From IMG/VR virus record IMGVR_UViG_3300025133_000721, positions 1 through 20,978 of that record: a stretch of DNA of 20,978 bases. One strand, given 5' to 3'. How positions within the stretch are numbered: the first letter of the stretch is position 1; every line of letters starts with the position of its first letter. The position numbers were made by a program, and so were the translations under genes. This DNA comes from a virus. Under the pieces are notes generated by a model. It was not told where the DNA came from. It did no database searches and was given only the letters and a program-made list of their open reading frames with translations. Below, piece by piece: positions 1-19,788 of the stretch.

Positions 1-871
1 CTACATTGATTTCTGGATCTGTTATTTGATCCTCCGGAGATGGAACAGTAAATATTTGTTCTTCTGTTTCTGGTTTGTTAAATGGAGTTGAAGTATCTAT
101 TTTAGCTAATTCAGGTTCTTTTTCCTCAACAGGCATGGGTTTAACAGGTATTTTTTCTAAAGTTGCATCGCCCAAGTTTTCTGGTATTATAGGCGGTTCA
201 ACTCTAGTAACATCTGGTTCAGCAGGTAATGGTTCAGGAACTTCTATTTGCTTTCTTATTCTTTCTCTTTCTTTTTCTTGATCTTTTTTATATTCATGCC
301 ATTTCTTTTTACTAATACGACCCCAATCACCATCAGCACCAGAAGGACCAAGATCATAACCTTGTTCAATCATTTCTTGCTGCTTCTGCTTGTAAGTGTT
401 TTTATTTATAGTACCATAACTTTCTATAGCACGCCTAGTTACATGACCAGTGTCAGGATCGGTCCATTGTGGATTTTTTAATGCATATTCGTGGTCTTTA
501 TCATATAGAACTTCGTCTAAAGGTTTACCTCCATGAGCAGGCAAAGCTATAGTTGTGTAAGGTTCTGCGCCTTCTTTATGATTTCTATCAAAATATTTTT
601 CAACTAAATCAAGCTGCTCAAGTTCGTTCATAGATGTTAACTTGCTATGGTCAAACTGTAAATCTTTAGCTGTCTTATCCATAAACTGTATAAGCCCAGT
701 TGCTGAAGAACCTGGGTTTTTACCTTTAACATTAAAATTTGACTCGTTTTCTATAGCGGTTAATAACGAGTCTACGCTAAACCCAAATTTTTCTGCAATG
801 GAATTTACCCTATCCTCTACCCCAGGTATTTGTAAGAATTGTTCTCTAGTTAAATCGCCTTCTTGCGCCAT
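1..871 (-). CDS. Virion lytic transglycosylase, N-terminal part (runs off left edge)
   Basis: The reading frame is open from an ATG at 871 to the window edge (290 codons, no stop), so the C-terminus is missing. Residues 20-110 look like an SLT/GEWL-type transglycosylase: the segment AIENESNFN (40-48) carries the catalytic-type Glu in the usual 'ES.F' setting, E43, and SSATGLIQFM (56-65) matches the family 'A.GL.Q' motif. Residues 160-195 resemble a peptidoglycan_binding_1 repeat (DLGPSGADGDWG at 173-184). From about 208 it becomes Pro/Glu-rich, probably a linker to the missing part. The enzyme would cut glycan strands of the host wall, most likely from within the virion during DNA entry, since it follows two ejection-type genes and has no signal peptide. 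T7 gp16 likewise has its transglycosylase domain at the N-terminus. A free endolysin is less likely in this position. The 19-nt leader is A/T only, with no Shine-Dalgarno sequence. Confidence 0.88.
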   Translation of the reverse strand, partial: MAQEGDLTREQFLQIPGVEDRVNSIAEKFGFSVDSLLTAIENESNFNVKGKNPGSSATGLIQFMDKTAKDLQFDHSKLTSMNELEQLDLVEKYFDRNHKEGAEPYTTIALPAHGGKPLDEVLYDKDHEYALKNPQWTDPDTGHVTRRAIESYGTINKNTYKQKQQEMIEQGYDLGPSGADGDWGRISKKKWHEYKKDQEKERERIRKQIEVPEPLPAEPDVTRVEPPIIPENLGDATLEKIPVKPMPVEEKEPELAKIDTSTPFNKPETEEQIFTVPSPEDQITDPEINV

Positions 872-890
872 ATAATTTAATTATTATTTT

Positions 891-2459
891 CTAAAAACTT
901 GCTCTTGTATCAAAAGCTTTCATAGATTCACCATTAAAAGTCTCCCAGCCCTGTGGATTACCATCTAAAGGCATTTGTTTAAATATTTTTTGAGTACTTA
1001 AATAACTTGTAAACAAATTAAAACCTTGTTCAGTTGAAAGATCAAAAGCTCTTTTCTCCTTACCTATTATTATTCCAACATGATTAGGTTTCTTTTTATC
1101 TTTTAAAGGCCCTAAATTAATACCGGTACCACGAAAAGCAGTTTGTAAGTTTTTCATAGCTTGTTTAGGGTTTGTTTTTAGAAGATTTCTTGTGTTGTCT
1201 ATACCACCTACAGATTTAGCAACTAACATATCTACATACAGTTCTCTTTTTTGTGTATCTATTTCTTTTTTAGTACCATAAATAGCTTCTCCTTGAGCAC
1301 CCCTTAAATATCTACCTTTAATATTTTCTTTAATATTGTATTGTTCGTTGTGTACATCAGCAACTCCTTGACCATACCATTTAGCCATATTCTTAAGATT
1401 GTGATCTAACCCTGTTTTTTGTCTAAGAAAATCTTCAGCCTCTTCTTTTGTCCATAGAAAATTACCATCTTTATCAAGAGCTGGTGAACCGCCAACTTCT
1501 ACTCCTGGCGTATATTCTCTCTTATCAAAATTCATTATCTCACCATTTTCATCTTGGTAGAATTCTTTTGGTAATTTTCCACTAGCAAAAGCATTTGCAT
1601 AGGTAAGATCTTCATCGTCAGGAAGAATATCCATAAACATCATTGACATTTTCTCCCCAGAAGTAGCTGGTGACTCAGAATCTTTATCAGATTTACCATC
1701 TTTTATTTTTGATAATAATTCTTTAGCCGCAGTTTCTGCAGTTAAAGGACTGGTAGCTGAAATTCCTTTTTGTTCTTTTTCAGTAAAATAATCGTTAGCA
1801 GCGGTACCACCATTGTTATAATCACCTTGTGGTAAAGGTAAAGGATTGTTTGCATTTGTTCCATATATAGTACCATCGGGCATTGTTACTTTTATATTGT
1901 AATTATCTTCTTTTGGATATTCTATTTTAACACCAGTATCTTCTCCTTCAAGAGTGGTATGTATTAGTGCTAAATGATTTTGTTGTCTTGGATTTAAAGA
2001 ACCATTATAATTACCATTTAATTCATAATTACCATATCTTATATCAACTAATTGTTGATTACCTTTATCAATATTTTGAATATAACCAGCTGCAGTTGTT
2101 ATATCTTTTTGGGCTTTCATATCGTTTTTATTTCTTGATAAAATCGATGCGTTTTCTTGATACATACCGCTAACCTCTTTCATAAGACCTTCCATTCCCG
2201 GCACATTTTCATTACCATTTATTTGAGTGTCTGTTAGAAAAGGTACAGTATCTAAGTTTGGTTTATTCTCCATTAATTGTTTAAAGGTGGCTTGTTGTTC
2301 TTGGTATATTTTGTTCAAATGATCCATACCGGGTTTTGATTTGTCTTTAAAACCACTACTAAAAGCTGTATATTGAGCGATAGCGGCACCACCGTCTCCT
2401 ACTGCTAACTCATTTGCTTCTAACATCCCTTTATCAGCTTGTCCTGTTATATTTGCCAT
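891..2459 (-). CDS. Probable internal virion (ejection) protein, 522 aa
   Basis: I do not recognise a named family. The protein starts at ATG 2459, just after the stop of the 304-aa gene, and ends 19 bp before the transglycosylase gene, so the three look cotranscribed. Residues about 45-135 are polar and probably helical (many Gln, Lys, Glu); about 140-235 are Asn/Gly-rich with likely beta strands; 240-300 are acidic and include PDDEDL; the last 170 residues are Lys-rich and probably helical. There is no signal peptide or membrane segment. Position between a gp14-like protein and a transglycosylase is that of T7 gp15, a component of the channel through which DNA is ejected, so an internal virion role is the best guess. 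This is inferred from gene order and not from sequence similarity. A tail component is the main alternative. Confidence 0.7.
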   Translation of the reverse strand: MANITGQADKGMLEANELAVGDGGAAIAQYTAFSSGFKDKSKPGMDHLNKIYQEQQATFKQLMENKPNLDTVPFLTDTQINGNENVPGMEGLMKEVSGMYQENASILSRNKNDMKAQKDITTAAGYIQNIDKGNQQLVDIRYGNYELNGNYNGSLNPRQQNHLALIHTTLEGEDTGVKIEYPKEDNYNIKVTMPDGTIYGTNANNPLPLPQGDYNNGGTAANDYFTEKEQKGISATSPLTAETAAKELLSKIKDGKSDKDSESPATSGEKMSMMFMDILPDDEDLTYANAFASGKLPKEFYQDENGEIMNFDKREYTPGVEVGGSPALDKDGNFLWTKEEAEDFLRQKTGLDHNLKNMAKWYGQGVADVHNEQYNIKENIKGRYLRGAQGEAIYGTKKEIDTQKRELYVDMLVAKSVGGIDNTRNLLKTNPKQAMKNLQTAFRGTGINLGPLKDKKKPNHVGIIIGKEKRAFDLSTEQGFNLFTSYLSTQKIFKQMPLDGNPQGWETFNGESMKAFDTRASF

Positions 2460-2461
2460 AA

Positions 2462-3376
2462 TTATATTGATTTAAATTGAACGTCTAACTTAGAATAATC
2501 AACCATATCATAACCATTAGCGTGTCTTACGACTGCTTCTTGTGGTATTTCATCTGACATAACACCTTGATAAATTCCTTTGCCATTTTCTTTGCTCTTG
2601 TACTCAAAGTTATATATATTTAATCCACTAGGTGATTTACCTACTAATTTAATATTTTTCTTTAATTTACGATCAGAACTTTTAAATTGATCCCAACTAA
2701 AACCTCCTTTACCATCAGCTCCTCCAGTTGGACTATAACCAGCGGCATAACCACTAGCCACAGATCCTGCAACCTCACCAATTCCACCAGCGATCATTGC
2801 TTTATGTGCTGCTATATCTTTCTTTGCAGCACCTAAACGTTGAGCATCCATACCAAACAACGTGCTTTGTCTACTTAAATCCAGTCTCTGTTGTTCGCTA
2901 ACTCCTTTTCCATAAACAGTTTGAGCTTGTAATTCCATTTGTTGTTCCATCATACCGCCTTTAGCAATTAATTGTTGATTAGCAGCTTCTTGTTGAGCTA
3001 TTGAAGCAGATGATGCTTGACTTTGCATCATATTTTGATTTGCTAAAGCTTGGGCTAAAGAAGCTACGCCACTACCACCAGCAGATCTTTGTAGTCCTTG
3101 CATTAAATTAGCTTGAGATTGTTGAAACATTTGATTTTGAAATTCAGCAGCTTTAGTACTAACAGTTATATCCTCATATGTATTTTGGAAATTTTGTTGT
3201 ACGTTTTCAAAAGGATTTTGAATAACGCGATCTTTATATCTTGCTCTAGATGCATCGTATTCACCTTGGGCTTCTCTTAATTCACGTCTTCTTGCCCCAC
3301 GGCCTGCCATCCCCATGCCTATTTTTGCTAAACCACTTATTGCGCCTGATACGGCCATTATTGCTAAAGGACCCAT
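2462..3376 (-). CDS. Ejection-type internal virion protein with C-terminal S74 chaperone domain
   Basis: 304 aa in two parts. Residues 1-28 form a hydrophobic, Gly-rich segment (MGPLAIMAVSGAISGLAKIG) followed by a basic stretch; residues 30-185 are very rich in Gln, Ala and Met and probably alpha-helical; a second Gly/Ala-rich hydrophobic stretch lies at about 190-215. This composition resembles T7 gp14-type internal virion proteins that enter the host envelope. Residues 234-304 match the intramolecular chaperone/peptidase S74 family: the SDRKLK motif begins at S234, and S234 with K239 has the Ser-to-Lys spacing of the self-cleaving dyad; NIYNFEYK, GIYQGV and the C-terminal YDMVDYSKLDV block follow. 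Known members trimerise a fibre and then cut themselves off. Cleavage here would be just before S234. Domain assignment is confident; the function of the N-terminal part is inferred from composition and gene order. Confidence 0.85.
   Translation of the reverse strand: MGPLAIMAVSGAISGLAKIGMGMAGRGARRRELREAQGEYDASRARYKDRVIQNPFENVQQNFQNTYEDITVSTKAAEFQNQMFQQSQANLMQGLQRSAGGSGVASLAQALANQNMMQSQASSASIAQQEAANQQLIAKGGMMEQQMELQAQTVYGKGVSEQQRLDLSRQSTLFGMDAQRLGAAKKDIAAHKAMIAGGIGEVAGSVASGYAAGYSPTGGADGKGGFSWDQFKSSDRKLKKNIKLVGKSPSGLNIYNFEYKSKENGKGIYQGVMSDEIPQEAVVRHANGYDMVDYSKLDVQFKSI
2465..2677 (-). other. S74-type intramolecular chaperone domain (residues 234-304)
   Basis: This is the C-terminal domain of the 304-aa protein. 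It begins at the predicted autocleavage serine (S234), with the lysine partner five residues on (K239). The rest follows the family pattern: a LVGKSPSGLNIY strand block, a YQGVMSDE segment, and a final VDYSKLDV strand. In endosialidase and other fibre proteins this domain guides trimerisation and is then released. Confidence 0.82.
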
Positions 3377-3431: not shown

Positions 3432-3836
3432 TTATTTACTACTTCTTACTATTTCTGCACCTACGTTAAATAGTTCTGCTTTTTTTCTGGAATTATTAAT
3501 AAAATTTACACTAGCGTAATAACCTTTTAATCTATTTAGTTCAACAATATTGTTTTTACTAAAAAACATAAAGTAATTACCTGGATTTTGATAGCCCATT
3601 GTATCATAATCTACTCCTCCTGGTAAATCATAAACCGACAAACCAGCATAATCAATAGTAATATCACTACCATTTACACTTGTTATGTTTCCAACTTTTA
3701 TTGGACCTTCAGTTGCGGTATCGTAATTCCCACCAATACCAAAATTAGAATTAGCATGTTCACAAAAGAAAAGAGTGTCTCCAATCTTTAGTGAATTGTT
3801 CAATGCTTGATCTATATTAAAAGTTACGCTTGCCAT
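3432..3836 (-). CDS. Small beta-rich virion structural protein, 134 aa
   Basis: I do not recognise a named family, but the sequence looks like a compact beta protein. Residues 12-62 contain a strand-turn pattern SLKIGDTLFF, then KVGNITSV and ITIDYAG; the C-terminal 40 residues (NRLKGYYASVNFINN, AELFNVGAEIVRSSK) resemble the end of small structural proteins I associate with marine phages. There is no signal peptide or membrane segment. Its stop is 55 bp before the start of the ejection-type gene, and only one base separates its start from the stop of the 433-aa protein gene, so it is probably translated with the neck and tail block. A minor tail or tail-tip role is plausible; this is inference from position and fold-like pattern. 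Confidence 0.72.
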   Translation of the reverse strand: MASVTFNIDQALNNSLKIGDTLFFCEHANSNFGIGGNYDTATEGPIKVGNITSVNGSDITIDYAGLSVYDLPGGVDYDTMGYQNPGNYFMFFSKNNIVELNRLKGYYASVNFINNSRKKAELFNVGAEIVRSSK

Positions 3837-3837
3837 A

Positions 3838-5139
3838 TTAATAAGTATCTGTTATTGTTATTATTTTATTTAAATCTAACGTTAGTGTGAAACTTGTATG
3901 TGCTGATTTAAGGAAAGTAAGTGTTCCTGTTAAAGATGAAGTATCAGAACTACCAGTAAAATATATATCTGTATCAACTGGTATTGTAGTTGCGTTTGTC
4001 CCACTAGCAACAAACGTGTCAGCATCAGTAACGCTACTAACTGTTAACGCTTGATCTAATCCAGTCATACTTATTGTATTGCCAGCTTTAATACCTCTTG
4101 TACTATCAACATCAACACTAGTACTACTACTCCATTGAGTTTTTATTTGAGTTTTTACATTAAAATCTGTAGCACCACCAGTATCGTTATTAGTTACTGT
4201 TGCTAAAGCATATTTCATGTCACTAAGTTCTATATCAGCTCCATAAATATTTTTTACGTTTTGAAGACCATATGCTTGTATTGTTAACGTAGAATCATTT
4301 TCAAATGACTGTGCGTTAGAAAGCGTAAGAGTTTTTGCTTTAGCATTAACACCCCTTATTATTGCTTCTGTACTTAACGCTACTGTATCATCTTCTACTC
4401 CAACATTTTCAACTTTATGAGTAATTTCCATACCAACACGCAATCCTTTAATATCATCTAATATTACTGTAGCTGAACTACTAGTAGCTCCATTAACAAT
4501 TTTTTGCGTTGTTGTATAAAAATGACTTTCGTCGGGTTGAGCTAGTATAGTTAATGCATGATCACTATTGTTTATTGGTATAGTCCAATCTAAAGTAGTT
4601 GTATTATTTGGTGATTCTAAAGCTAATTTATTACCTATATTTTTAAAATCAGTAGATTTAGGTTTTACAAAAGTATAATTAGATGGTTCGACAATATCAG
4701 AATCTGAATGTAAAAGAGATATTGTTGTTGTTATATCTAAGTATTGGTAAATAGAACTTGGATATTTTAAACTTCCGTTTGCATTTGTTTCTATGCTAAA
4801 ATTAGGTACTTTATAAATTAAACTAGTAGATAAAGAATCTACAAACGATGTTTCAAAATGACTTTCTGCATAAACATAAACGTTGTATTCATCAGGATCT
4901 GTAACAAGTGGAAATGTTATAGGAATAAAATATCCTTCTTCATCTAAAATCTCTTTTTGTAATAATCTATATGCGGTAGATGTAAAAGTTTTTGTTTCAA
5001 AATTATAATAATGATTATCTTCATTAGTAACATATACACTAAAAACAGCGCCAACGTCTCCAAGAATAGACAATCTTCTTATTGTTTTGTTTTTAGATAA
5101 GTCACTATTATCTATATTTACTGATTTTATCTTTTTCAT
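3838..5139 (-). CDS. Beta-repeat tail or appendage structural protein, 433 aa
   Basis: The protein is rich in Thr, Ser, Asp and Val with alternating hydrophobic residues throughout, as in beta-sandwich appendage proteins, and has no signal peptide. Residues 1-110 form a conserved-looking N-terminal domain (RRLSILGDVGAVFSVYV at 21-37, then a DPDEYNVYVYAE strand at 81-92) that may dock to the tail. Residues 218-290 and 336-396 look like two copies of the same small module: Ser/Thr-rich entry, a V.V.D strand, a short 'KGL.VGM.I' or 'RGIKAGNTI' turn, then strands ending in hydroxyl-rich residues. It lies one base after the giant stabilisation gene and one base before the 134-aa gene. A tail-attached spike or adaptor is likely, but no enzymatic or receptor-binding motif is visible. 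Confidence 0.75.
   Translation of the reverse strand: MKKIKSVNIDNSDLSKNKTIRRLSILGDVGAVFSVYVTNEDNHYYNFETKTFTSTAYRLLQKEILDEEGYFIPITFPLVTDPDEYNVYVYAESHFETSFVDSLSTSLIYKVPNFSIETNANGSLKYPSSIYQYLDITTTISLLHSDSDIVEPSNYTFVKPKSTDFKNIGNKLALESPNNTTTLDWTIPINNSDHALTILAQPDESHFYTTTQKIVNGATSSSATVILDDIKGLRVGMEITHKVENVGVEDDTVALSTEAIIRGVNAKAKTLTLSNAQSFENDSTLTIQAYGLQNVKNIYGADIELSDMKYALATVTNNDTGGATDFNVKTQIKTQWSSSTSVDVDSTRGIKAGNTISMTGLDQALTVSSVTDADTFVASGTNATTIPVDTDIYFTGSSDTSSLTGTLTFLKSAHTSFTLTLDLNKIITITDTY
3952..4134 (-). repeat. Beta module, copy 2 of the 433-aa protein (residues 336-396)
   Basis: Divergent second copy of an internal duplication. The matching anchor points are V.VD strand, RGIKAGNTI turn, LTVSSV strand and a final IYFTG strand. 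Similarity is at the level of strand pattern, with low residue identity. Confidence 0.45.
4270..4488 (-). repeat. Beta module, copy 1 of the 433-aa protein (residues 218-290)
   Basis: First copy of the internal duplication: TVILDD strand, KGLRVGMEI turn, IIRGVN and KTLTLS strands, closing on STLTIQAYG. It is longer than copy 2 by an acidic loop (VENVGVEDDT). Confidence 0.45.
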
Positions 5140-5140
5140 A

Positions 5141-8100
5141 TTATGACATTTGAATTGTTACTTCATTAGAATATTCTACCCTTCCTAAAGCGTCCGTTGT
5201 TTTTAATCTAAAACCGTAGTATTTATCTACACCTACTTGAGTCCAAGGAGCATCTAATAAACTTTGATAACCCGTAATAAATGGAGAATCCCAGTTATTT
5301 GGAGGAAGAGTAAGATGTGTAGTGTAAGTGGGTATATAAGCGCTTGTTTCACTATTCGTAACTGGTGAGGCAAAGTTTGGTTCATATGGATCGTGGAAAA
5401 GATCATTAACAGGTACAGTTAGATATGGAGGTGTTGGGTTTAAAGTATTGTCATGGCGTATTGAAGGCACGGTAGTGGTGTTAGGATCGTTTGTCCAACC
5501 ACCTACATTCCAATCAGCGGCAATAGCAGAGTCAGTAGTTCCTGAATCAACAGCGTATTCCATTTCATAAACATAAGGTTCGTTTATTAACGCTCCATAA
5601 GCACTTGTTGTACCGTTCGTAATATAGAAGTTGTATTCATTATAATAGTATCCACCTAAATTAAGTGTTTGTAACCATTGTTTTTGTACTATTAATACTG
5701 GTGGTGTGTATAAATTAGTTAAGTCAAACAAACAGCTCCCATCTTGAACTGTAACAAGGGAGTTATGATTTGAAGATGTTCCATTAGCATCATAACAACC
5801 AAGAACAGCATCAAATGATTTTGTTATAGTATGTGTATGTGTAATTGCGTTTAAATCCGCATCGTACCAATAAAACGTAAAATTACCAACAACTTGACCG
5901 TCTGAAGTTAAGTTTATATTTTGATCCCAAGTATTTGTATATGGAACGTTATTACCTATTAAATTAGATTGACCTGGAATCGCTATATCAAAATCAAAAT
6001 AAGAAGGAGCATCAGTATAAGGAGTAGAAGGATCAGCTATATCATATCTTAAATTTGAAAAATTAGCTTGATAATTTGGTGTTGTAGTAACAACTGGATA
6101 GTCAGAAGGGGTAAAAGGATTTAATACAGTTCCTATAGGTGATCCTGTTACAAAGAAACTAGAAAGAACACCTAAACCTTGAACTGAAAAATTCTCTGTA
6201 TTTATTGTCCCAGTGTTTCCTGAAGTAGCACCTTTTATAGGACTAAACCACTCGTCTTGTTTTTCTGTAAAATTTAAAGCCGTTCCTAATTGATCTTCAT
6301 TTGTAGATATGTCATTAACATACCAACCTTGAGTAGTTATTCTATTTTTAAAATTTTGTTTAGCATAAGAATCTAATGTCTGTCCTGTACTACCCTCATA
6401 ATTAAGTGCTGAAAATGATTTAATAGTTTGTGGCTCTTGATTAAATAAGACTTTTATCTCAGACGGTGTAAAACCACCACCATCATTTAAGTAAAAAGTA
6501 TTTCTATCTACAGATTTATCATGGTGTTTATAAGCATTACCTTTTTTAAATGTAAAAAATTCATTTGCAACACTAATACCATTCTCTGGAATAAAAGATT
6601 TAAAACTAACCCATCCTTTTTCACTTTCTTTATAACTTAGTGTATGATTGTGATAATCTCCATATCGATTTAATTCATTATATTTTAATGTTAAGTTGTA
6701 TTCTTGTTTTCTGGCGTCATAACAACCTATTAAATATTTAGTATTTTTTAAATTATCAAAAAACCATGTTTTCATACCGGCTTCTGATATAGGTGTCAAT
6801 CCATCTTTAGATAATCTAAGAACAGCACCCCTTTGTTTGTCTGTAAAATAAGCTCTATAAGATTCTTTAGAAAATGACTCTGGATTTTTTGAGATACCAT
6901 AATCACCAACAAAAGGTATGGTTTGTCCTAAAACATTAATATTAGCTGTTAATTGAGGGTTTCCATCGGCATTATAAACAGCGTCTTTATTAGCTAATAT
7001 TTTTACAACTTTATCTTCGCAGAAAGTTATTAAATCAGTATTTCTACTAAATAGTTTTTGCACGGTACCATAAGTTGGATTTAAATCTTTTGTTATTTTC
7101 TCTCCTTGTATAAATTGATTTAAATCATTAGTACCACTAGTAGAATTATATATTCCTGAAAATATTAAACCACTACCTCTTCTTTCTTCTTTATATAAAT
7201 TACCCTCTAAAGTAGTTGAAACTTTAGGCCCTTTATCTATAATAATACCATTAAAAGCATCTTTAATTCTATTTGACTCTACACCATTACCAAAAGAATA
7301 ACAATTGAACCAAGGTAATTCTACCGCTGTTGTATTGTGAAAATCAAAATTAATATTAATATTACCTGTTTCTAAATGATCTTCAGCAACCTTAAAGGCT
7401 ATTGTTATTTCATCGTCACTAAAAAATAAAACATCAGGATATCCACTATTATCAGGATTTGATACTTGTAAAAACATATCAACCCATACGCCTGATTCAC
7501 TAATAAGTTGTATCACTCCATTATCAAAAATTTTATTTACATAAGTTTTTTGACTTCCACCACCCCCGCTAATACCTCGATCATTACCAAGACTTGATTG
7601 TCCAGAACCACCGGTTGGAATATAAGAGGCTATTTCAACATTCATTCCTGGTTTTATATAATTATGTATATTTGATGTTGTTAAAGTTATTGGATAAGCA
7701 TCACTCGCTTCATGATAAAGATTTATATCTACACTATCTTTTGGCTCTGTTTCCCATATAGCTGGATTATCAGGTAAATCTTCATCGTCAGCTATAGGTT
7801 CTATTATTTCTAACGTATAACCCTGCGCTTTTGTTATACCACTTTTTACATCAGGACCTGAGTTTGAAGAACCATCTAAATTAAATTCTGCGTTTGGATC
7901 AGTATTAGGAGAAAAACCATTCATGGCTATTTGCCCGTCGTTAGGAGCTGTTGGATCCCATGTCATTTTTTTATCAAGCCATAACCTCCAATTTCTACTA
8001 AAGTTTTCTGGTCTTCTTGCATTCGATCTAAGACCACCAGAACCCCACGATGCTCTGTCTATGTCATAATCATAACGTAACTTATAAATATCGTTTACAC

Positions 8101-11100
8101 TTGTTATAGTATAAATCGTTCCATTTGGATCTTCTGCCCATCTTATTTTGGTACCAGGTGTTAATGCATTGACAAAAGTATTTTCACCAGCATAACGAGA
8201 GTTTATTTGACCTTCTCCGACATTATATATAGAGGGGTTTCCTTCTGACCAACCAAGTCTTAGGCCATCCCCATACCAATAATCATACGGGCCATAAGTA
8301 CTGTTGTTAGTCCAAGTATCATTCCAGTAAGACTGCTTCCCAACCGCGCCACCATCTCTATCGGGATCAAGTTCATCTGGATCTGGTTCTAAACCAGAAA
8401 ACCCAAGTTCTATTCTAGATACATTAGAATAATTTTTAACTCCAATACCAACAGTTTCAAATCCTGTGTTTGCATCACTTCCTATGCCCCATATATGACT
8501 TTCGCTACTCCAAGTACCACTAGTATCATTATCTACATTAAATTGACCACCACACCTTGACTTAAATTCATCGATGAACCAAACATCTTCAAATGAAGTC
8601 GTTGTAGGCGTTGTGTTGTGGGCTCTTCTAGCAGTTATATCATGATGTCCTTCTCCTCTGAAAAAACCTGTAAACTTATAAAAGAACGATTTTAAATATT
8701 GCCAATTATCAAATTCATTATAATTTACATTAGTATCTGTATTCATACCTGTATTTTCCCAAGTAAGACCATGTTCATGCCAATCGACTTTATTTACTTT
8801 TCCATCTGAATGTAACGCCATATGATCTGGCGACATGTAGTATATTTTTCTTGAGGCTAATACTCTATAATTTGTTGAATCATCAATTTTTTTATCAATA
8901 TTACTTTTTACAATTTCATCTCTATTTATTTTTACAAAAAATCTTCCATCAAATTTAGGTGAATTTTCTAATTTACGCTTTTCAAATATAATAGCCGTTG
9001 CGTTTTCAATTTGACTATTATCTTCGTCATATATAAAATTAACATCACTTTCAAAAGTGTCAGCAATCTTGAAATCAATCATTGTGCCTGGCGTAACACC
9101 ATCCGCATCTGTAGTTGCTGATATATTAGACACTCTATAATTCTTTGTCGATTTAGTATTTCCTGATTGTTCAAATCTCACCCACAATTCATCTGTAGTG
9201 CCTTCTAATGCTTTGTAGATATTATCTAAACTACTATTAATAAACGGTTCGTAGTTAATGCTAAAATAATTTCTTGACTGTAAAGGAAATTTACCAGCGT
9301 CCTGTCCAAAGACATCATTTGAACCATTATTATGATATTCAAGTCCTTGTGGTAATTTTTTAAGCCTTATATAATCAGGCGCATTATTTTCTACTGCTAA
9401 AACTTTATATCTTGCAGTCTCTTTTACTAATTTATTAGAGTCATTACCTTTTTTTAATATTAAAAATGTATCTTCATCTACTTTGTTTCTATCACTAGAT
9501 GGAAAAGCAATCCATATGTTTCCATCATCAGCGTCATACCAACGATCCATAGCTAGATTGTAGTATTCGTTAGAAGTTTCTTTTACGTAAAACTTATAGT
9601 GAGTTGCAAAATCAGGTGGAGGAGTTTCTGTTTTAATATTAAGTTGATTTGAATTTCCTGCGTAGATTTTAGGGATTGATATACTAGCCGAACCACTAGT
9701 TAATACAGGTGTTTGTCTTCCATATTTATCAAAATAAACAATTCCTACTTGATAATTTCTTAAAGACTTTAAAGATTTTCTCGGAATTTTTACACCAGCA
9801 CCATTAGAATTAAATTCTTTTAAACTAATATTAAATCTTGGATGAGTTGTTGTTAGATTATAATTTTGTAAATAATTACCATAAACAATTCTATTACCAG
9901 TTACTTCTTGAGCAAGGGCTTTTCTTGGTACATTATCCCAGGGTCTTATAGTTTGGTTTGTAGGTAGTGTAGCATATATACTTTCGGCTTTTACTTTGTA
10001 TTTACCAGTTAATACTGAATGAATATTATCACCTGGGTATGTCCAACTGTTATAGAATGTACCATTGTATGGATTTAAAAGCTCATTAGTGTCGTTTTGT
10101 TTTATACTATCTAATATATATATATTTGAAGAATTTGATTCTTTATATAAAATATCTATACCAATTACATCTTTTGGTATATCTTTAGACACAAACTCTT
10201 TTATGAATAAACTAGACATTATATTAGACATGGCTATATTATACCCTTTTCTTGGATGAAAATCAAAATTACCTGGCATAAAAGCTATATTAGAAAAAGG
10301 ACCTATAGACGAATACTGCTTATCTGGATATTCGTATCTAAGAGCAAATCTAGGAAATTTAAATTCAAATAGTTTTTCTTGTGGTTGATAAAGATCTACA
10401 ACAAAAAAAGGCGCTAAACCCGTATCAATATCTAAACCAATAGGAACTCTATTGTCTATAGATATTATCTCAAAATTAAACACACCATCACTACTACCCA
10501 CTAAGTTCTGTATAACAGTATTTAATCTTAATTTAACTTCAAACTCTGTTAAAGGTGTTAAATGAGGATTTGTCTCATAACTTTTTAAAATAATCTCATC
10601 ATCAATAACCCAATTGAATACTCCTTCTGTTTTTATAACATTAATATCTATCCAATTACCAACAATTAGTCCATCAAAATCTACATTGGTGATACCACTT
10701 GTTGTGCCTGATCGTAAATTGTTAGACATTTCTAAACCAGGTGCTAATAGTGGTGCTTTTTTAATAACAGTTACATGTCGTTCTTCCATCGGTTGGTCAT
10801 CATTAAGCATAGTACTGTTTAAACCACTGCTATCAGTATTGCTAATTGATGTTTTTATATTTATTTGCTTTGGCTCACTATTGTTATCTGTCCAAAACAA
10901 AAGATCTTCAATGATATTTATACCTGTTATAATGTTGTTAAATTGAAAATCTAAAGCTTTACTTATAGTATTAACTCCACCTGGACAAGTTAAAGTACTA
11001 GATTTTTTAACAAACTTAAATAAGTTGTCTTTTGTTTCTTGCGGACTTAAAGTGCCTAAATTAATATCGTTTTGTAAAGTTATCGCTGTCAAACCGGTAT

Positions 11101-11617
11101 TAAGATGGTTTCTACTTATAGAAACAATAGGATTATCATTCCAATAGCACATTTGGCCATAAACATCTATATACTGAGCAATCATACCTCTACATAGGTT
11201 GGTTGATTGAGAATCAGGTATCATTATTTCATTAGCACTGTCATCATGATTAGCGTATTCAGCAGTTACTTCGTAAACATCTATAAAAACAGGTGTAACA
11301 ACACCATTTTGATATTTATAAATAGCGTCTTTATTACTACCAACTTCTTCATTCCCGTAAACATGACCTTTTACAAACCAGTAAAAACAATTGTTTTTTT
11401 CATCTGCAACAGCACCCACAACATAAATTCCCGTGTCTACACTTACGCCCGGTATTAAAGAATTACCTAAAATGTTTTGAACAGTACCTACATCAGAACC
11501 TTCTGAAGTAGAAATTTGTATATTCATTGCATGCCTATATTGGCCATTAGGTACAAGTCTTTCGTCAAGGTCTTTATTCATTACACCCTGATCAAAAGTA
11601 TTCTTTATTTCTGCCAT
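5141..11617 (-). CDS. Giant phage stabilisation (tail nozzle/muzzle) protein, 2158 aa
   Basis: The largest gene of the window. The N-terminus (residues 7-52) carries the signature NKDLDERLVPNGQYRHAMNI then STSEGSDVGTVQN, which I recognise from proteins annotated as P22-type stabilisation or tail proteins in marine phages. The following 1700 residues show many beta strands ending in aromatic or acidic turns, for example LLFWTDNNSEPKQINI near residue 240, compatible with propeller-like domains of gp10/gp12-type nozzle proteins. Residues of roughly 990-1240 form an unusual Trp/Gly/Asp-rich stretch. After about 1850 there is an additional tail with a DGSC motif (1940-1964) and a final fibronectin-III-like strand set (KYYGFRLKTTDALGR). 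P22 gp10 and T7 gp12 are far shorter. It should close the neck below the ring proteins and plug DNA exit. No frameshift or low-complexity break is seen. Confidence 0.88.
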   Translation of the reverse strand: MAEIKNTFDQGVMNKDLDERLVPNGQYRHAMNIQISTSEGSDVGTVQNILGNSLIPGVSVDTGIYVVGAVADEKNNCFYWFVKGHVYGNEEVGSNKDAIYKYQNGVVTPVFIDVYEVTAEYANHDDSANEIMIPDSQSTNLCRGMIAQYIDVYGQMCYWNDNPIVSISRNHLNTGLTAITLQNDINLGTLSPQETKDNLFKFVKKSSTLTCPGGVNTISKALDFQFNNIITGINIIEDLLFWTDNNSEPKQINIKTSISNTDSSGLNSTMLNDDQPMEERHVTVIKKAPLLAPGLEMSNNLRSGTTSGITNVDFDGLIVGNWIDINVIKTEGVFNWVIDDEIILKSYETNPHLTPLTEFEVKLRLNTVIQNLVGSSDGVFNFEIISIDNRVPIGLDIDTGLAPFFVVDLYQPQEKLFEFKFPRFALRYEYPDKQYSSIGPFSNIAFMPGNFDFHPRKGYNIAMSNIMSSLFIKEFVSKDIPKDVIGIDILYKESNSSNIYILDSIKQNDTNELLNPYNGTFYNSWTYPGDNIHSVLTGKYKVKAESIYATLPTNQTIRPWDNVPRKALAQEVTGNRIVYGNYLQNYNLTTTHPRFNISLKEFNSNGAGVKIPRKSLKSLRNYQVGIVYFDKYGRQTPVLTSGSASISIPKIYAGNSNQLNIKTETPPPDFATHYKFYVKETSNEYYNLAMDRWYDADDGNIWIAFPSSDRNKVDEDTFLILKKGNDSNKLVKETARYKVLAVENNAPDYIRLKKLPQGLEYHNNGSNDVFGQDAGKFPLQSRNYFSINYEPFINSSLDNIYKALEGTTDELWVRFEQSGNTKSTKNYRVSNISATTDADGVTPGTMIDFKIADTFESDVNFIYDEDNSQIENATAIIFEKRKLENSPKFDGRFFVKINRDEIVKSNIDKKIDDSTNYRVLASRKIYYMSPDHMALHSDGKVNKVDWHEHGLTWENTGMNTDTNVNYNEFDNWQYLKSFFYKFTGFFRGEGHHDITARRAHNTTPTTTSFEDVWFIDEFKSRCGGQFNVDNDTSGTWSSESHIWGIGSDANTGFETVGIGVKNYSNVSRIELGFSGLEPDPDELDPDRDGGAVGKQSYWNDTWTNNSTYGPYDYWYGDGLRLGWSEGNPSIYNVGEGQINSRYAGENTFVNALTPGTKIRWAEDPNGTIYTITSVNDIYKLRYDYDIDRASWGSGGLRSNARRPENFSRNWRLWLDKKMTWDPTAPNDGQIAMNGFSPNTDPNAEFNLDGSSNSGPDVKSGITKAQGYTLEIIEPIADDEDLPDNPAIWETEPKDSVDINLYHEASDAYPITLTTSNIHNYIKPGMNVEIASYIPTGGSGQSSLGNDRGISGGGGSQKTYVNKIFDNGVIQLISESGVWVDMFLQVSNPDNSGYPDVLFFSDDEITIAFKVAEDHLETGNININFDFHNTTAVELPWFNCYSFGNGVESNRIKDAFNGIIIDKGPKVSTTLEGNLYKEERRGSGLIFSGIYNSTSGTNDLNQFIQGEKITKDLNPTYGTVQKLFSRNTDLITFCEDKVVKILANKDAVYNADGNPQLTANINVLGQTIPFVGDYGISKNPESFSKESYRAYFTDKQRGAVLRLSKDGLTPISEAGMKTWFFDNLKNTKYLIGCYDARKQEYNLTLKYNELNRYGDYHNHTLSYKESEKGWVSFKSFIPENGISVANEFFTFKKGNAYKHHDKSVDRNTFYLNDGGGFTPSEIKVLFNQEPQTIKSFSALNYEGSTGQTLDSYAKQNFKNRITTQGWYVNDISTNEDQLGTALNFTEKQDEWFSPIKGATSGNTGTINTENFSVQGLGVLSSFFVTGSPIGTVLNPFTPSDYPVVTTTPNYQANFSNLRYDIADPSTPYTDAPSYFDFDIAIPGQSNLIGNNVPYTNTWDQNINLTSDGQVVGNFTFYWYDADLNAITHTHTITKSFDAVLGCYDANGTSSNHNSLVTVQDGSCLFDLTNLYTPPVLIVQKQWLQTLNLGGYYYNEYNFYITNGTTSAYGALINEPYVYEMEYAVDSGTTDSAIAADWNVGGWTNDPNTTTVPSIRHDNTLNPTPPYLTVPVNDLFHDPYEPNFASPVTNSETSAYIPTYTTHLTLPPNNWDSPFITGYQSLLDAPWTQVGVDKYYGFRLKTTDALGRVEYSNEVTIQMS
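5726..5800 (-). other. DGSC-type motif in the stabilisation protein (residues 1940-1964)
   Basis: The segment begins GCYDANG and ends VTVQDGSCLF, with cysteines at 1941 and 1962. It matches the 'GC.D..A.N.N..A...DGSC' repeat common in secreted and surface proteins of marine Flavobacteriia. Only one copy is visible. The match is by eye. Confidence 0.6.
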
Positions 11618-14700: not shown

Positions 14701-16164
14701 TTAGTTCAATAACATAAAGTTATTTGCACCTTGAGTAACTAAACATCTTTCAGATAAATAGTTAACTCTCATTGCGTCTAATTCAGATGTAGTAGCACCA
14801 ACAGAACCAGTAATCCAAGTTTTCATTTTTCGATTATCAGTTTTTGAAGCTCTATATCTAACATGTAAGAAAGGACGTTTAAGGTTCTTTCCTAATTGTT
14901 GGTCGTAAACCGAAGATACACCAGCAGGAACTATAACTCCTCTAATTGCATCAGCAGCAGCTCTAGAATTAATTGCGCCTCTAGTACCAGCATCATTTAG
15001 ATATTTCCAGTCAGACTTGTAGAAATCGTAAGATCCACGTCTGAAACCAGAGAAACCTAAATTTAACGCCATTTCTTCAGAGTTGTTAAATACTCCCCAA
15101 GAAGTACCACCAGCACCGTAAGAATTCATTGAAGCTAACATGTCATCAATAGCTAAACTAGTGTTTCTGTTAACAAACATCATGTTTTCTTCAATAGCAC
15201 CTTGAGAATCAAACTCAGCTAAGATAGCGTCAAATTCTGCTAAATCAGTAGCAGCGTTAACACCAGTAATACCAGAAGAGTTATTCCCTCTATCATTAAT
15301 AGCGTCAAACAAACCTTGAGTACCAAAAGTAGTACCAGTTGTAGCTTGAGGAGACACAAGGAAATTAACACCTGTATCAAGTGTAGAAGCCGCTAAACCT
15401 CTAACGCCCTCTAAACATTGCATTTCTAAGTTATCAGCAAATCTCATTCTAGTTTCACCTTCAGCTTTTAAATACCATAAGTATCCAGAAGCACCATCTT
15501 CACCACTAACTTCAACCCATCCTATTGCAGACGCGTCAGAACCAGAAACGTGATACATGTCTCTAATAATAACTGGTTTGTTAGTAAATGATTGGTGAGA
15601 AGGCTCGTTAGCTGAACTATAAGGAGTATCAGATCCTTTTGCCCATTCAGAACCTATCTTAAGAACTGTAACCGCTACATCACCCATAGCAGGAGATGTA
15701 TTAGCAGCGTGTGCATATTCATAAGGAAGTATTGTTATAACATCAGAGCTGTCATCAGCTGTAACTCTACCAACATAAGTTACGTTAGCAGCAGCAACAA
15801 CACAAACATCACCAAGACGTAAACCGTGCTCGTTTTCAGTATATGTTGCGTTTGTTCCAGCGTGACCTGTTAATGTTACATTAGAGTGAGATGCATCCAT
15901 TGTACCTGTGTACGCTAAATGTAATCTACCCTGTTCAGACCAAACAACCATATCGGATGTCATAGCCTCTTCAGCCCCAACTTGTGAAAGAAATCCTGAA
16001 ACTGTTCTATTTCCGAACACTTCAGCTTCTTTTTCCATTAGGTCTGGTAAATATTGTTGTGCCCACCCATTTCCAGAAGCTGTAAAATCTATAAAGTTAG
16101 ATGCTAAAGCGTTTTGAGTTGGGCTTACAACGGTGTTTAAATTATCACCTGCAGTAATTGCCAT
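14701..16164 (-). CDS. Major capsid protein, 487 aa
   Basis: Placed after terminase, portal and scaffold and followed by a strong terminator, as usual for the main shell protein. Length fits large HK97-fold capsid proteins. Residues 1-90 are an N-arm-like region with helices (YLPDLMEKEAEVFGNRTVSGF at 39-59); 95-150 form a small beta insertion (HGLRLGDVCVV, then VITILPYEY); the centre has LWYLKAEGETRMRFADNLEMQ and a long helix (LAEFDAILAEFDSQGAIEENMMFVN), compatible with the spine helix region. The last 50 residues include HVRYRASKTDNRKMKTWITG and a hydrophobic end. Codon use and start context look like its neighbours, and no truncation is seen. Assignment rests mainly on gene order, length and composition, as no short diagnostic motif exists for this fold. 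Confidence 0.88.
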   Translation of the reverse strand: MAITAGDNLNTVVSPTQNALASNFIDFTASGNGWAQQYLPDLMEKEAEVFGNRTVSGFLSQVGAEEAMTSDMVVWSEQGRLHLAYTGTMDASHSNVTLTGHAGTNATYTENEHGLRLGDVCVVAAANVTYVGRVTADDSSDVITILPYEYAHAANTSPAMGDVAVTVLKIGSEWAKGSDTPYSSANEPSHQSFTNKPVIIRDMYHVSGSDASAIGWVEVSGEDGASGYLWYLKAEGETRMRFADNLEMQCLEGVRGLAASTLDTGVNFLVSPQATTGTTFGTQGLFDAINDRGNNSSGITGVNAATDLAEFDAILAEFDSQGAIEENMMFVNRNTSLAIDDMLASMNSYGAGGTSWGVFNNSEEMALNLGFSGFRRGSYDFYKSDWKYLNDAGTRGAINSRAAADAIRGVIVPAGVSSVYDQQLGKNLKRPFLHVRYRASKTDNRKMKTWITGSVGATTSELDAMRVNYLSERCLVTQGANNFMLLN

Positions 16165-17361: not shown

Positions 17362-19788
17362 TTAATCAAAAGATATAGGCTTTAATTCCATGCCACTACT
17401 TATACTATCACTTGCTGATTCAAAGTTTTTAGGTCCTTCGTCATTGTTTCTTTGTGAAATCATTTCACTTTGTTGAGTTGCTTGTATTTTAGTTCTATCA
17501 TCTTTACGATTTTCTTTCATGTTTTCGTTATCTGTCTTAGCTTTTGTTTCTAAGTTTTTAAGCTGCATACTATATTGGAACTCTTGTTCCATTAGTTGTT
17601 TCTTAAGTTCTGCTTCTGCCGCTTGTTCTTTCATTCTCAAGTCAGACTTTTGTGTTTCTAATTGAGTCTCTATTTGAGCTTGCATTTGCGCTTTTTGCAT
17701 TTCAGCTTGAGCTGCTGCTTGCGCAGCCTGTTGATTTGTCTCAGACTGAAGTTGCATGTTTCTTTCTTGTAATTGCTGATCTTTTTCTTGTTTCTTTTTT
17801 CTACGTATTTTTAATAATTGATTTGCAAGTTTTATATTTTTAATTTCTCTAAGATCAATAGCATCTTCAAGCTCTATATTTTGTTGTTGTAAAGCCATTT
17901 GGATATTATTCTCAAGCATAGCTTTTTCTTCTTCATCTGGTTGTAGTTCTATAAATATACCAAAGTCATATAAATGTAATTCTTTTAATTCTTCTAAAAC
18001 AGCAACATTATAAGCGCCTATAGCTTGTATAAAAGCATCTTTTGTTGGAGAATATTCTATAATATCAGATATTCTAAGAGATAAACATTCTGCCATTTCT
18101 GCTGTTAAAAACAAACCTGACTGTAATATGTGCCTTGTAGCGGTATTACTATTTGCGGCTGCTAGTTTTTGAACACCTACTAAAGCATTTTTATCTGGCA
18201 TACTACCATCTCTGGCCTCGTTAAGCCCGGTAGTATCTCTAATCATTTGTAGATAATAATTGTAGTTAGCAATAAGAGCTTGTATTTTATTACCACCATT
18301 ACCACTTGTTATCTCTTGAATAGGTACTTTACCAGGATTCATATCACCTTCAGAAGTAAAACTTCTACCAATTACGGATCCTGTTTGGAAGAACATGTTT
18401 AATGCCTCTTGTGGGTTATAATTTGTTCCATTACCCAGATCTATCTCAGCGAGACCATCCGCATCTAAATAAACACCATCAGGAACCATACGAGCCATAA
18501 CCTGTTGTAGTTTTAAATGTGTTAATTGTATCATGTCTGCAAAGCCCGTTACTCTTCTCACTAAAGATTCTATTTTCCCTTTATACATTCTAGGTGCTAC
18601 AACAGCATAATTCATTTTAACTTTTGTAAAATCACTTTTAGGACGTATCATATTTTGAGCCATTCTCCATTTTAGCACTTTTTTAGTACCTAATATCAAA
18701 GCACCTTCATATAATACCTCTACTTTTCTTTGTAATTTATCAAAACTTCCTTCTAAATTTCTAGGTGGATTAAAAGAATCGTCTTTTGGTATAGCTTTAT
18801 TAGCACCACTACCAGTTTGTTTTACTTTATATGTCTCATTCATATAAGTTTTATAATTAAAATATAAAACTTGAACTTTATTACTATCTGTTTCTCTATA
18901 GTTATTTTGCCCTGAATTATAATTAGTTTGAGTAAAAGTTTTATTTTTTTGAATATCTTTTAATTCATCTTTGCTTAAATCAGGAAATTCTTTTATTAAT
19001 TCATTTAAAGGCACGTCTTTTACTTCTCCAACGTAATATATATCATCAAAATAAGGGGATTCAGTATATGAATATACTAAATCAGCTGGATCAACATATT
19101 TTAATGTAGCGCCTTGAGATGAGTTAAATTCGTTTTTAACAGCACCAATTCCAAGCACAGTAAGATCATAGTAAAAACGCTTTTTAATTAACTCATAATT
19201 ATTACCATCCATTAAAACGTTTATAGCTTGTTCTTCTGCAATTTCAATAGCTTGCTTATAACTTAATTGCATGTGTAAATCTAGCTCTTCTTGGGTTTGC
19301 GGTAAATCAGTTGCTGGTATAGTTGTTTTAGAAACATCCATACCATAATTTTGTTGCATTATCGCATTAAAATCTTGTGAAGCCATGTCAGATAATATAT
19401 CTTGCATGTACTTACTTCTCTTATCTATACCTGCCCTATCTTGAGAATAAGCTTTTATATCATATGTTCTTTCTGCAATACCATTAACTACTATATCTAC
19501 AAATTTAGGTATAATTGGAACTGGCTTCCAATCTAAATTAAGATAGGATAAATCACCATTTATAGATAACTCATCCTTATATTTTTGTATTGGTTGTTCT
19601 CCCCTAGCATACAACCTAAGATTATGAAAATTATTTTTGTTAGTAGTGTATCGAACAGTGTTTCTATCGCTATGAAACCACTCAGTTTCAATAGCTTTAG
19701 CTACTTTTAACCCATATTCATTTGAGTTTTTTTCGCTATCACTGACAACTTGTGATGGGAAATAACTTTTTACCGCAGACTCTGCCAT
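17362..19788 (-). CDS. Portal protein, 808 aa
   Basis: Dodecameric ring through which the terminase packages DNA and on which the neck is built. Supporting features: a KYVDPADLVYSYTESPYFDD segment at about 225-245, typical of portal wing domains; TTGLNEARDGSMPDKNALVG at about 515-540, the conserved motif near the stem/clip helix of many portals; and helices rich in Met/Gln before it. From residue 620 to the end the protein becomes a long Gln/Lys/Glu/Ala-rich region (QQAAQAAAQAEMQKAQMQAQ) that should form a coiled coil or barrel projecting into the head. At 808 aa it is longer than P22 (725 aa) or T7 (about 536 aa) portals. The ATG at 19788 lies four bases after the terminase stop codon. Confidence 0.92.
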   Translation of the reverse strand: MAESAVKSYFPSQVVSDSEKNSNEYGLKVAKAIETEWFHSDRNTVRYTTNKNNFHNLRLYARGEQPIQKYKDELSINGDLSYLNLDWKPVPIIPKFVDIVVNGIAERTYDIKAYSQDRAGIDKRSKYMQDILSDMASQDFNAIMQQNYGMDVSKTTIPATDLPQTQEELDLHMQLSYKQAIEIAEEQAINVLMDGNNYELIKKRFYYDLTVLGIGAVKNEFNSSQGATLKYVDPADLVYSYTESPYFDDIYYVGEVKDVPLNELIKEFPDLSKDELKDIQKNKTFTQTNYNSGQNNYRETDSNKVQVLYFNYKTYMNETYKVKQTGSGANKAIPKDDSFNPPRNLEGSFDKLQRKVEVLYEGALILGTKKVLKWRMAQNMIRPKSDFTKVKMNYAVVAPRMYKGKIESLVRRVTGFADMIQLTHLKLQQVMARMVPDGVYLDADGLAEIDLGNGTNYNPQEALNMFFQTGSVIGRSFTSEGDMNPGKVPIQEITSGNGGNKIQALIANYNYYLQMIRDTTGLNEARDGSMPDKNALVGVQKLAAANSNTATRHILQSGLFLTAEMAECLSLRISDIIEYSPTKDAFIQAIGAYNVAVLEELKELHLYDFGIFIELQPDEEEKAMLENNIQMALQQQNIELEDAIDLREIKNIKLANQLLKIRRKKKQEKDQQLQERNMQLQSETNQQAAQAAAQAEMQKAQMQAQIETQLETQKSDLRMKEQAAEAELKKQLMEQEFQYSMQLKNLETKAKTDNENMKENRKDDRTKIQATQQSEMISQRNNDEGPKNFESASDSISSGMELKPISFD

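Follow-up and report, generated by a model that had tools for sequence, protein, structure and literature searches.

The window, by which we mean the whole stretch of 20,978 nucleotides analysed here (IMG/VR virus record IMGVR_UViG_3300025133_000721), carries at positions 2 to 3376 three neighbouring genes on the minus strand. Upstream of this trio and on the same strand lie genes for a terminase, a portal, a scaffold-like protein, a member of a capsid protein family and three larger virion proteins. The gene order of this block together with the trio is that of the general podophage morphogenesis module, as in T7. The features discussed below are:

17362..19788, minus strand: portal protein (phrog_6547 portal, E=1.6e-157)
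14701..16164, minus strand: gene of the major capsid protein, assigned from its position and family (phrog_13704 virion structural protein, E=4.5e-102)
5141..11617, minus strand: virion protein of 2158 aa at the nozzle/gp12 position (phrog_14478 virion structural protein, E=1.8e-131)
2462..3376, minus strand (3376..2462 in the ORF listing): first gene of the trio, 304 aa; probable gp14/gp7-type ejection protein and predicted outer-membrane pore former (hydropathy, composition, family alignment, iterative HMM, phrog_6121)
2486..2677, minus strand: Peptidase_S74-like C-terminal tail, residues 234-297 of the 304-aa protein (Pfam S74, alignment)
891..2459, minus strand: middle protein of 522 aa at the gp15 (periplasmic tunnel) position (ORF, no membrane segment, conserved position)
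2..871, minus strand: third protein, at the gp16 position, first 290 aa, the rest cut by the contig end (ORF open at its 3' end)
482..826, minus strand: SLT lytic transglycosylase domain, about residues 16-130 of the third protein (PF01464, PDB 9udh, phrog_342)
275..403, minus strand: possible peptidoglycan-binding-like stretch, residues 157-199 of the third protein (weak PDB hit 4nso)

Within the trio, the intergenic gaps are 2 nt (304-aa to 522-aa gene) and 19 nt (522-aa to third gene). The roles of the upstream 229-, 478- and 2158-aa proteins, including that of nozzle for the last, are presumed from position. The 2158-aa protein far exceeds T7 gp12 in length, and its counterparts in relatives have 947-2,669 aa. 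Between its gene and the trio lie two further genes (3432-3836, 134 aa, and 3838-5139, 433 aa), whose position is kept in many relatives.

Conservation of the trio, hosts and virion presence

The initial annotation had seen in the last three genes the order of T7 14-15-16, with a small Gly/Gln-rich protein of hydrophobic N-terminus, a larger soluble protein and a protein starting with a transglycosylase. This description stands, and the ORFs are as listed. We gathered about 150 loci by searching viral contigs with the capsid, 304-aa and 2158-aa proteins, and the order small, middle, large was kept in all 52 loci with three readable genes (the window counted in). Thus, the arrangement goes beyond chance. 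In these 52 loci, the first protein has 200-363 aa, the middle one 320-992 aa, and the third gene is usually open for >1,000 aa at the locus end; the gaps have medians of 12 and 10 nt.

Podophages isolated on Cellulophaga, Flavobacterium and Maribacter are among the loci keeping the trio order. Maribacter phage Panino has a short tail of about 15 nm (PMC11590407), and Calle and Gundel are podoviral (PMC8776804). The portal matches 87 isolated phages, the named ones all on Flavobacterium, Cellulophaga, Tenacibaculum or Maribacter, and these Flavobacteriia hosts make a Bacteroidota host for the window virus, which had been supposed from the start, well supported.

In the record of Cellulophaga phage phi18:3, gp120, gp121 and gp123 are virion proteins by experimental MS/MS, and the counterpart of the capsid protein is annotated as a virion structural protein, also by MS/MS. 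Virion presence of the trio thus comes through relatives, by homology for the first protein and by position for the other two, because both the middle and the third gene evolve too fast.

The first and middle proteins

The 304-aa protein is rich in Gly (11.5%), Gln (10.5%) and Ala (12.5%), and has Q/A/G-rich helices and a core, AAGGSGIA..AQALANQ, that is conserved in the family alignment. A gp14-like protein should have about 200 aa and a membrane-inserting hydrophobic segment. The family has a median length of 229 aa, and the best 19-aa hydropathy within the first 40 residues of the window protein is 1.54 (1.31 for T7 gp14); two close family members, L103 and L146, are without the hydrophobic N-terminus. 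Iterative HMM searches found homology to phi18:3 gp120 (3.5e-31), phi38:1 gp099 and proteins of elemo and Panino, and phrog_6121 (virion structural protein) was matched with E=1.2e-9.

At its C-terminus, this protein carries the S74-like tail. Peptidase_S74 (PF13884) scores 14.5 bits there, under the curated Pfam cut-off of 22, and the tail-bearing relatives also stay below it (13.8-20.3 bits); H6/1 and PAE2 reach 37.1 and 43.1 bits. The catalytic Ser/Lys pair of the S74 family (S with K at +5; SDRKLK) is invariant in nine aligned S74-like tails, H6/1 and PAE2 among them.

Hydropathy revealed no TM-like segment in the 522-aa protein. Its homologues are recognisable solely within the nearest clade of 10 loci, and in the gp15-type profile comparison L115 alone joined the window group, all others remaining within noise. 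Accepted gp15 proteins are themselves mostly assigned by synteny and size (PMC8954989). In one relative (L102:14373-17351), the middle protein is 992 aa long and contains MORN repeats as well as, near its C-terminus, a weak SLT match (0.025), as if the wall hydrolase of the third protein had shifted to the second. The SLT domain of the window also matched this locus by phmmer (2.5e-20), with coordinates listed as those of a third gene but belonging to L102|14373, the middle gene.

No similarity to T7 had been obvious in the initial annotation, and our searches agree: sequence or profile homology of the trio to T7, P22 or SP6 proteins was not detected. Profile-profile comparison of the gp14-type core against T7, SP6, phiKMV, P-SSP7, epsilon15, P22, H6/1 and PAE2 stayed within the noise of reversed sequences, the known relative MW202828 alone rising above it. 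Starting from the T7 profile, the same method found SP6 and missed P22 and P-SSP7. Since it misses accepted members, the lack of detected homology carries little weight and cannot separate distant kinship from independent origin. AlphaFold models of the first two proteins were weak (pLDDT 67.6 and 61.7), and Foldseek and VIA-align gave no credible match for either. T7 chain 8e4g_u (Z 2.8, rmsd 10.4) was listed amid unrelated helical proteins, and we gave it no weight. When PDB sequences were searched with the profiles of both families, only coiled-coil or unrelated hits came back.

Wall hydrolase and size of the third protein

The N-terminal transglycosylase of the third protein was recognised by Pfam SLT (PF01464, residues 24-81, 26.0 bits against a curated cut-off of 21.3) and by a match to PDB 9udh (E=1.5e-11). 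Moreover, residues 23-115 align to profile positions 20-111 of phrog_342, the T7 gp16 family (E=3e-5). The predicted catalytic Glu is E41 or E43 (window 743-751), in the motif ENESNF at residues 41-46. Residues 157-199 show a weak sequence resemblance to PDB 4nso (E=0.0093), where no stretch passes alone.

This N-terminal wall hydrolase is exchangeable between close relatives: it is an SLT domain in the window, L083, L106, L108 and L117, Glyco_hydro_108 in L105 and L107, and a glucosaminidase in L115. Mosaic behaviour of this sort is described for ejection proteins (PMC8954989). L084 has an NPGNI-type stretch without family match at the same end, and a wall hydrolase domain is not apparent in most other relatives' third proteins.

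The complete third gene of the two nearest relatives encodes 3,309 aa (G001/L083) and 3,324 aa (G002/L084), and three other relatives have third proteins of 2,826, 3,010 and 3,189 aa. An HExxH of metallopeptidase form occurs in 20 of 53 third proteins (200 shuffles: mean 0.08, maximum 2), often with a conserved EE..AI.SE stretch downstream. The third proteins of L083 and L084 also hold the HAD-like series DFDDTLA, LTARP and FADD; in L083 the HExxH and HAD-like regions lie at residues 1343-1349 and about 2440-2600, with a similar layout in L084 and others. Neither region gave anything above cut-off against PDB and Pfam, and NCBIfam had no match in three giant third proteins. We therefore speak of candidate zincin-like and HAD-like regions at the motif level, from motifs, conservation and, for HExxH, the shuffle test. 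As the contig ends within the third gene of the window, such regions would be expected in the missing part of its protein. Panino's third protein (L092:35423-40912) is annotated as a tRNA methyltransferase in its record, and no Pfam family backs that.

The trio as a candidate ejection module

Ejection genes are defined as clustered, in the order small gp14-like, gp15-like and largest gp16-like (PMC8954989), and the trio has this arrangement. The gene order, the protein sizes, the occurrence in virions and the short-tailed morphology speak for an ejection module resembling T7 gp14-15-16 or DEV gp73-72-71. The internal core proteins proposed in the initial annotation thus gain support from order, sizes and the N-terminal transglycosylase, which agree with the T7/P22/SP6 ejection operon (PMC8954989), together with the phi18:3 MS/MS data and the podophage relatives. 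We consider it very probable that these are the ejection genes of a podophage with Flavobacteriia-like hosts, whose products would work as pore, tunnel and giant enzyme. By analogy with T7 (PMC8954989) and DEV (PMC10925440), after adsorption the 304-aa protein would exit first and form a pore in the outer membrane, which the 522-aa protein would prolong as a tunnel through the periplasm. The giant third protein would cut the peptidoglycan with its N-terminal transglycosylase, and then cross the inner membrane and bring further enzymatic regions to the cytoplasm.

Compared with T7 gp14-gp15-gp16 (and with P22 gp7-gp20-gp16, SP6, phiKMV and P-SSP7), the trio shares the gene order, a first protein of about 200-300 aa, a middle protein without membrane segment and the largest protein last. 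As in T7, an SLT domain opens the third protein; the mosaic nature of the wall hydrolase is also shared. It differs in that homology was not detected, the near relatives' third protein is about 2.5 times as long as T7 gp16, the first protein bears an S74-like tail, and relatives' third proteins have zincin-like and HAD-like regions. The Pervagoviridae, Pachyviridae and Elemovirus sets (phi38:1 gp099-101, phi18:3 gp120-123, elemo, Panino) agree in position, order and a homologous first protein, and the phi18:3 proteins are in virions. However, they are annotated merely as structural or hypothetical, and in three of them the third protein has 1,691-1,935 aa, with no wall hydrolase family found. 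Polyvalent proteins (PMC5512222) are likewise very long injected phage proteins with zincin-like and other enzymatic regions, sometimes with a wall hydrolase, but no named polyvalent-protein Pfam family was matched here, the regions being recognised by motifs and conservation.

The initial annotation had held that a tail fibre or baseplate match of the first two proteins would speak against ejection, and the 304-aa protein does have the S74-like tail with its Ser/Lys pair. S74 domains are typical of tail fibres. The 304-aa protein could then be a tail fibre or spike adaptor, trimerised as usual by an S74 chaperone, with the 522-aa protein as fibre partner. Nevertheless, the tail occurs in 7 of the 54 complete family members, and 42 of the 49 aligned or listed ones keep the core without it. 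In Pseudoalteromonas phage vB_PspP-H6/1, moreover, gp17, which leads a set of three annotated ejection proteins (gp17-gp18-gp19), combines the same type of tail with the DNA-ejection core of P22 gp7 (phrog_598, 3.7e-16), so that the tail is not the mark of a fibre here. H6/1 differs from the window in this core and in the size of its other two proteins (383 and 573 aa). The tail also sits on the small protein heading a similar gene run in PAE2, Microcystis Mwe-JY13 and Vibrio 1.275.O, and in MW202675 within a 1,185-aa protein annotated as internal virion protein D. As neither the 304- nor the 522-aa protein matches a beta-helix or fibre family, we regard a fibre role as improbable.

The sizes also recall Schitoviridae, where the third protein would be a giant virion RNA polymerase. 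DEV gp73-gp72-gp71 and N4 gp52-gp51-gp50 likewise combine a small pore former, a tunnel protein of about 520-640 aa and a giant of >3,000 aa. The DEV proteins have 17.7 kDa, 521 aa and 3,398 aa (PMC10925440), similar to the window and its relatives, whose third proteins of 3,010-3,324 aa come near DEV gp71 and N4 gp50 (3,500 aa; PMC10925440, PMC12633501), and a zincin-like region is reported for the N4 vRNAP (PMC5512222). But the giant and pore genes stand in the opposite order in DEV and N4, the window's portal and terminase families are not N4-like, and no RNA polymerase family, including a T7-type single-subunit module, was found in the third proteins of L083, L089, phi38:1, phi18:3 and Panino, the window copy being truncated. 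N4 ejection proteins have no wall hydrolase (PMC12633501). Thus, we hold a polymerase module of this kind to be very improbable. We see next to no chance for the other outcome foreseen as contrary to ejection, in which the third gene would encode a tape measure or an ordinary endolysin and merely lie downstream of two structural genes. Taken alone, the first 290 aa of its product do resemble a transglycosylase, possibly followed by a wall-binding stretch; however, the reading frame runs off the contig, relatives' versions reach 3,309 and 3,324 aa, MS/MS places phi18:3 gp123 in the virion, and the relatives are short-tailed (PMC11590407).

The trio therefore most likely encodes a machine of a known kind, made of proteins that leave the head of a short-tailed phage and form a transient channel for DNA across the cell envelope. 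Here it occurs in Flavobacteria phages, and its third protein is unusually large in close relatives. Ejectosomes are covered for phages of Proteobacteria and cyanobacteria in PMC8954989, and the text of that review does not mention Bacteroidota. An ejectosome in the Pervagoviridae, Pachyviridae and Elemovirus relatives would give a function to the 'structural' or 'hypothetical' genes of dozens of cultivated flavophages. Swapped wall-cutting domains and a third protein of such size would also shed light on how phages with short tails adapt to different envelopes, and on what enters the cell along with their DNA.

More tentatively, and on balance doubtfully, these phages may form a Bacteroidota podophage ejectosome lineage, whose third protein would be injected as a chain of several enzymes, about 3,000 aa long, with a wall hydrolase that can be exchanged, a zincin-like protease and, in some, a HAD-like phosphatase. 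The pore protein of some members would bear a self-cleaving S74 chaperone tail. Speculatively, this tail may be a folding aid, possibly self-cleaved, that holds a membrane-active protein assembly-competent. The size, exchangeable hydrolase and HExxH of the third protein, the S74-like tail, and the SLT-like domain on the middle protein of one relative were additions to the initial annotation. Finally, the last 60 aa of the L083 third protein contain basic KKRKFGSS repeats, and L084 has acidic repeats in the same place.
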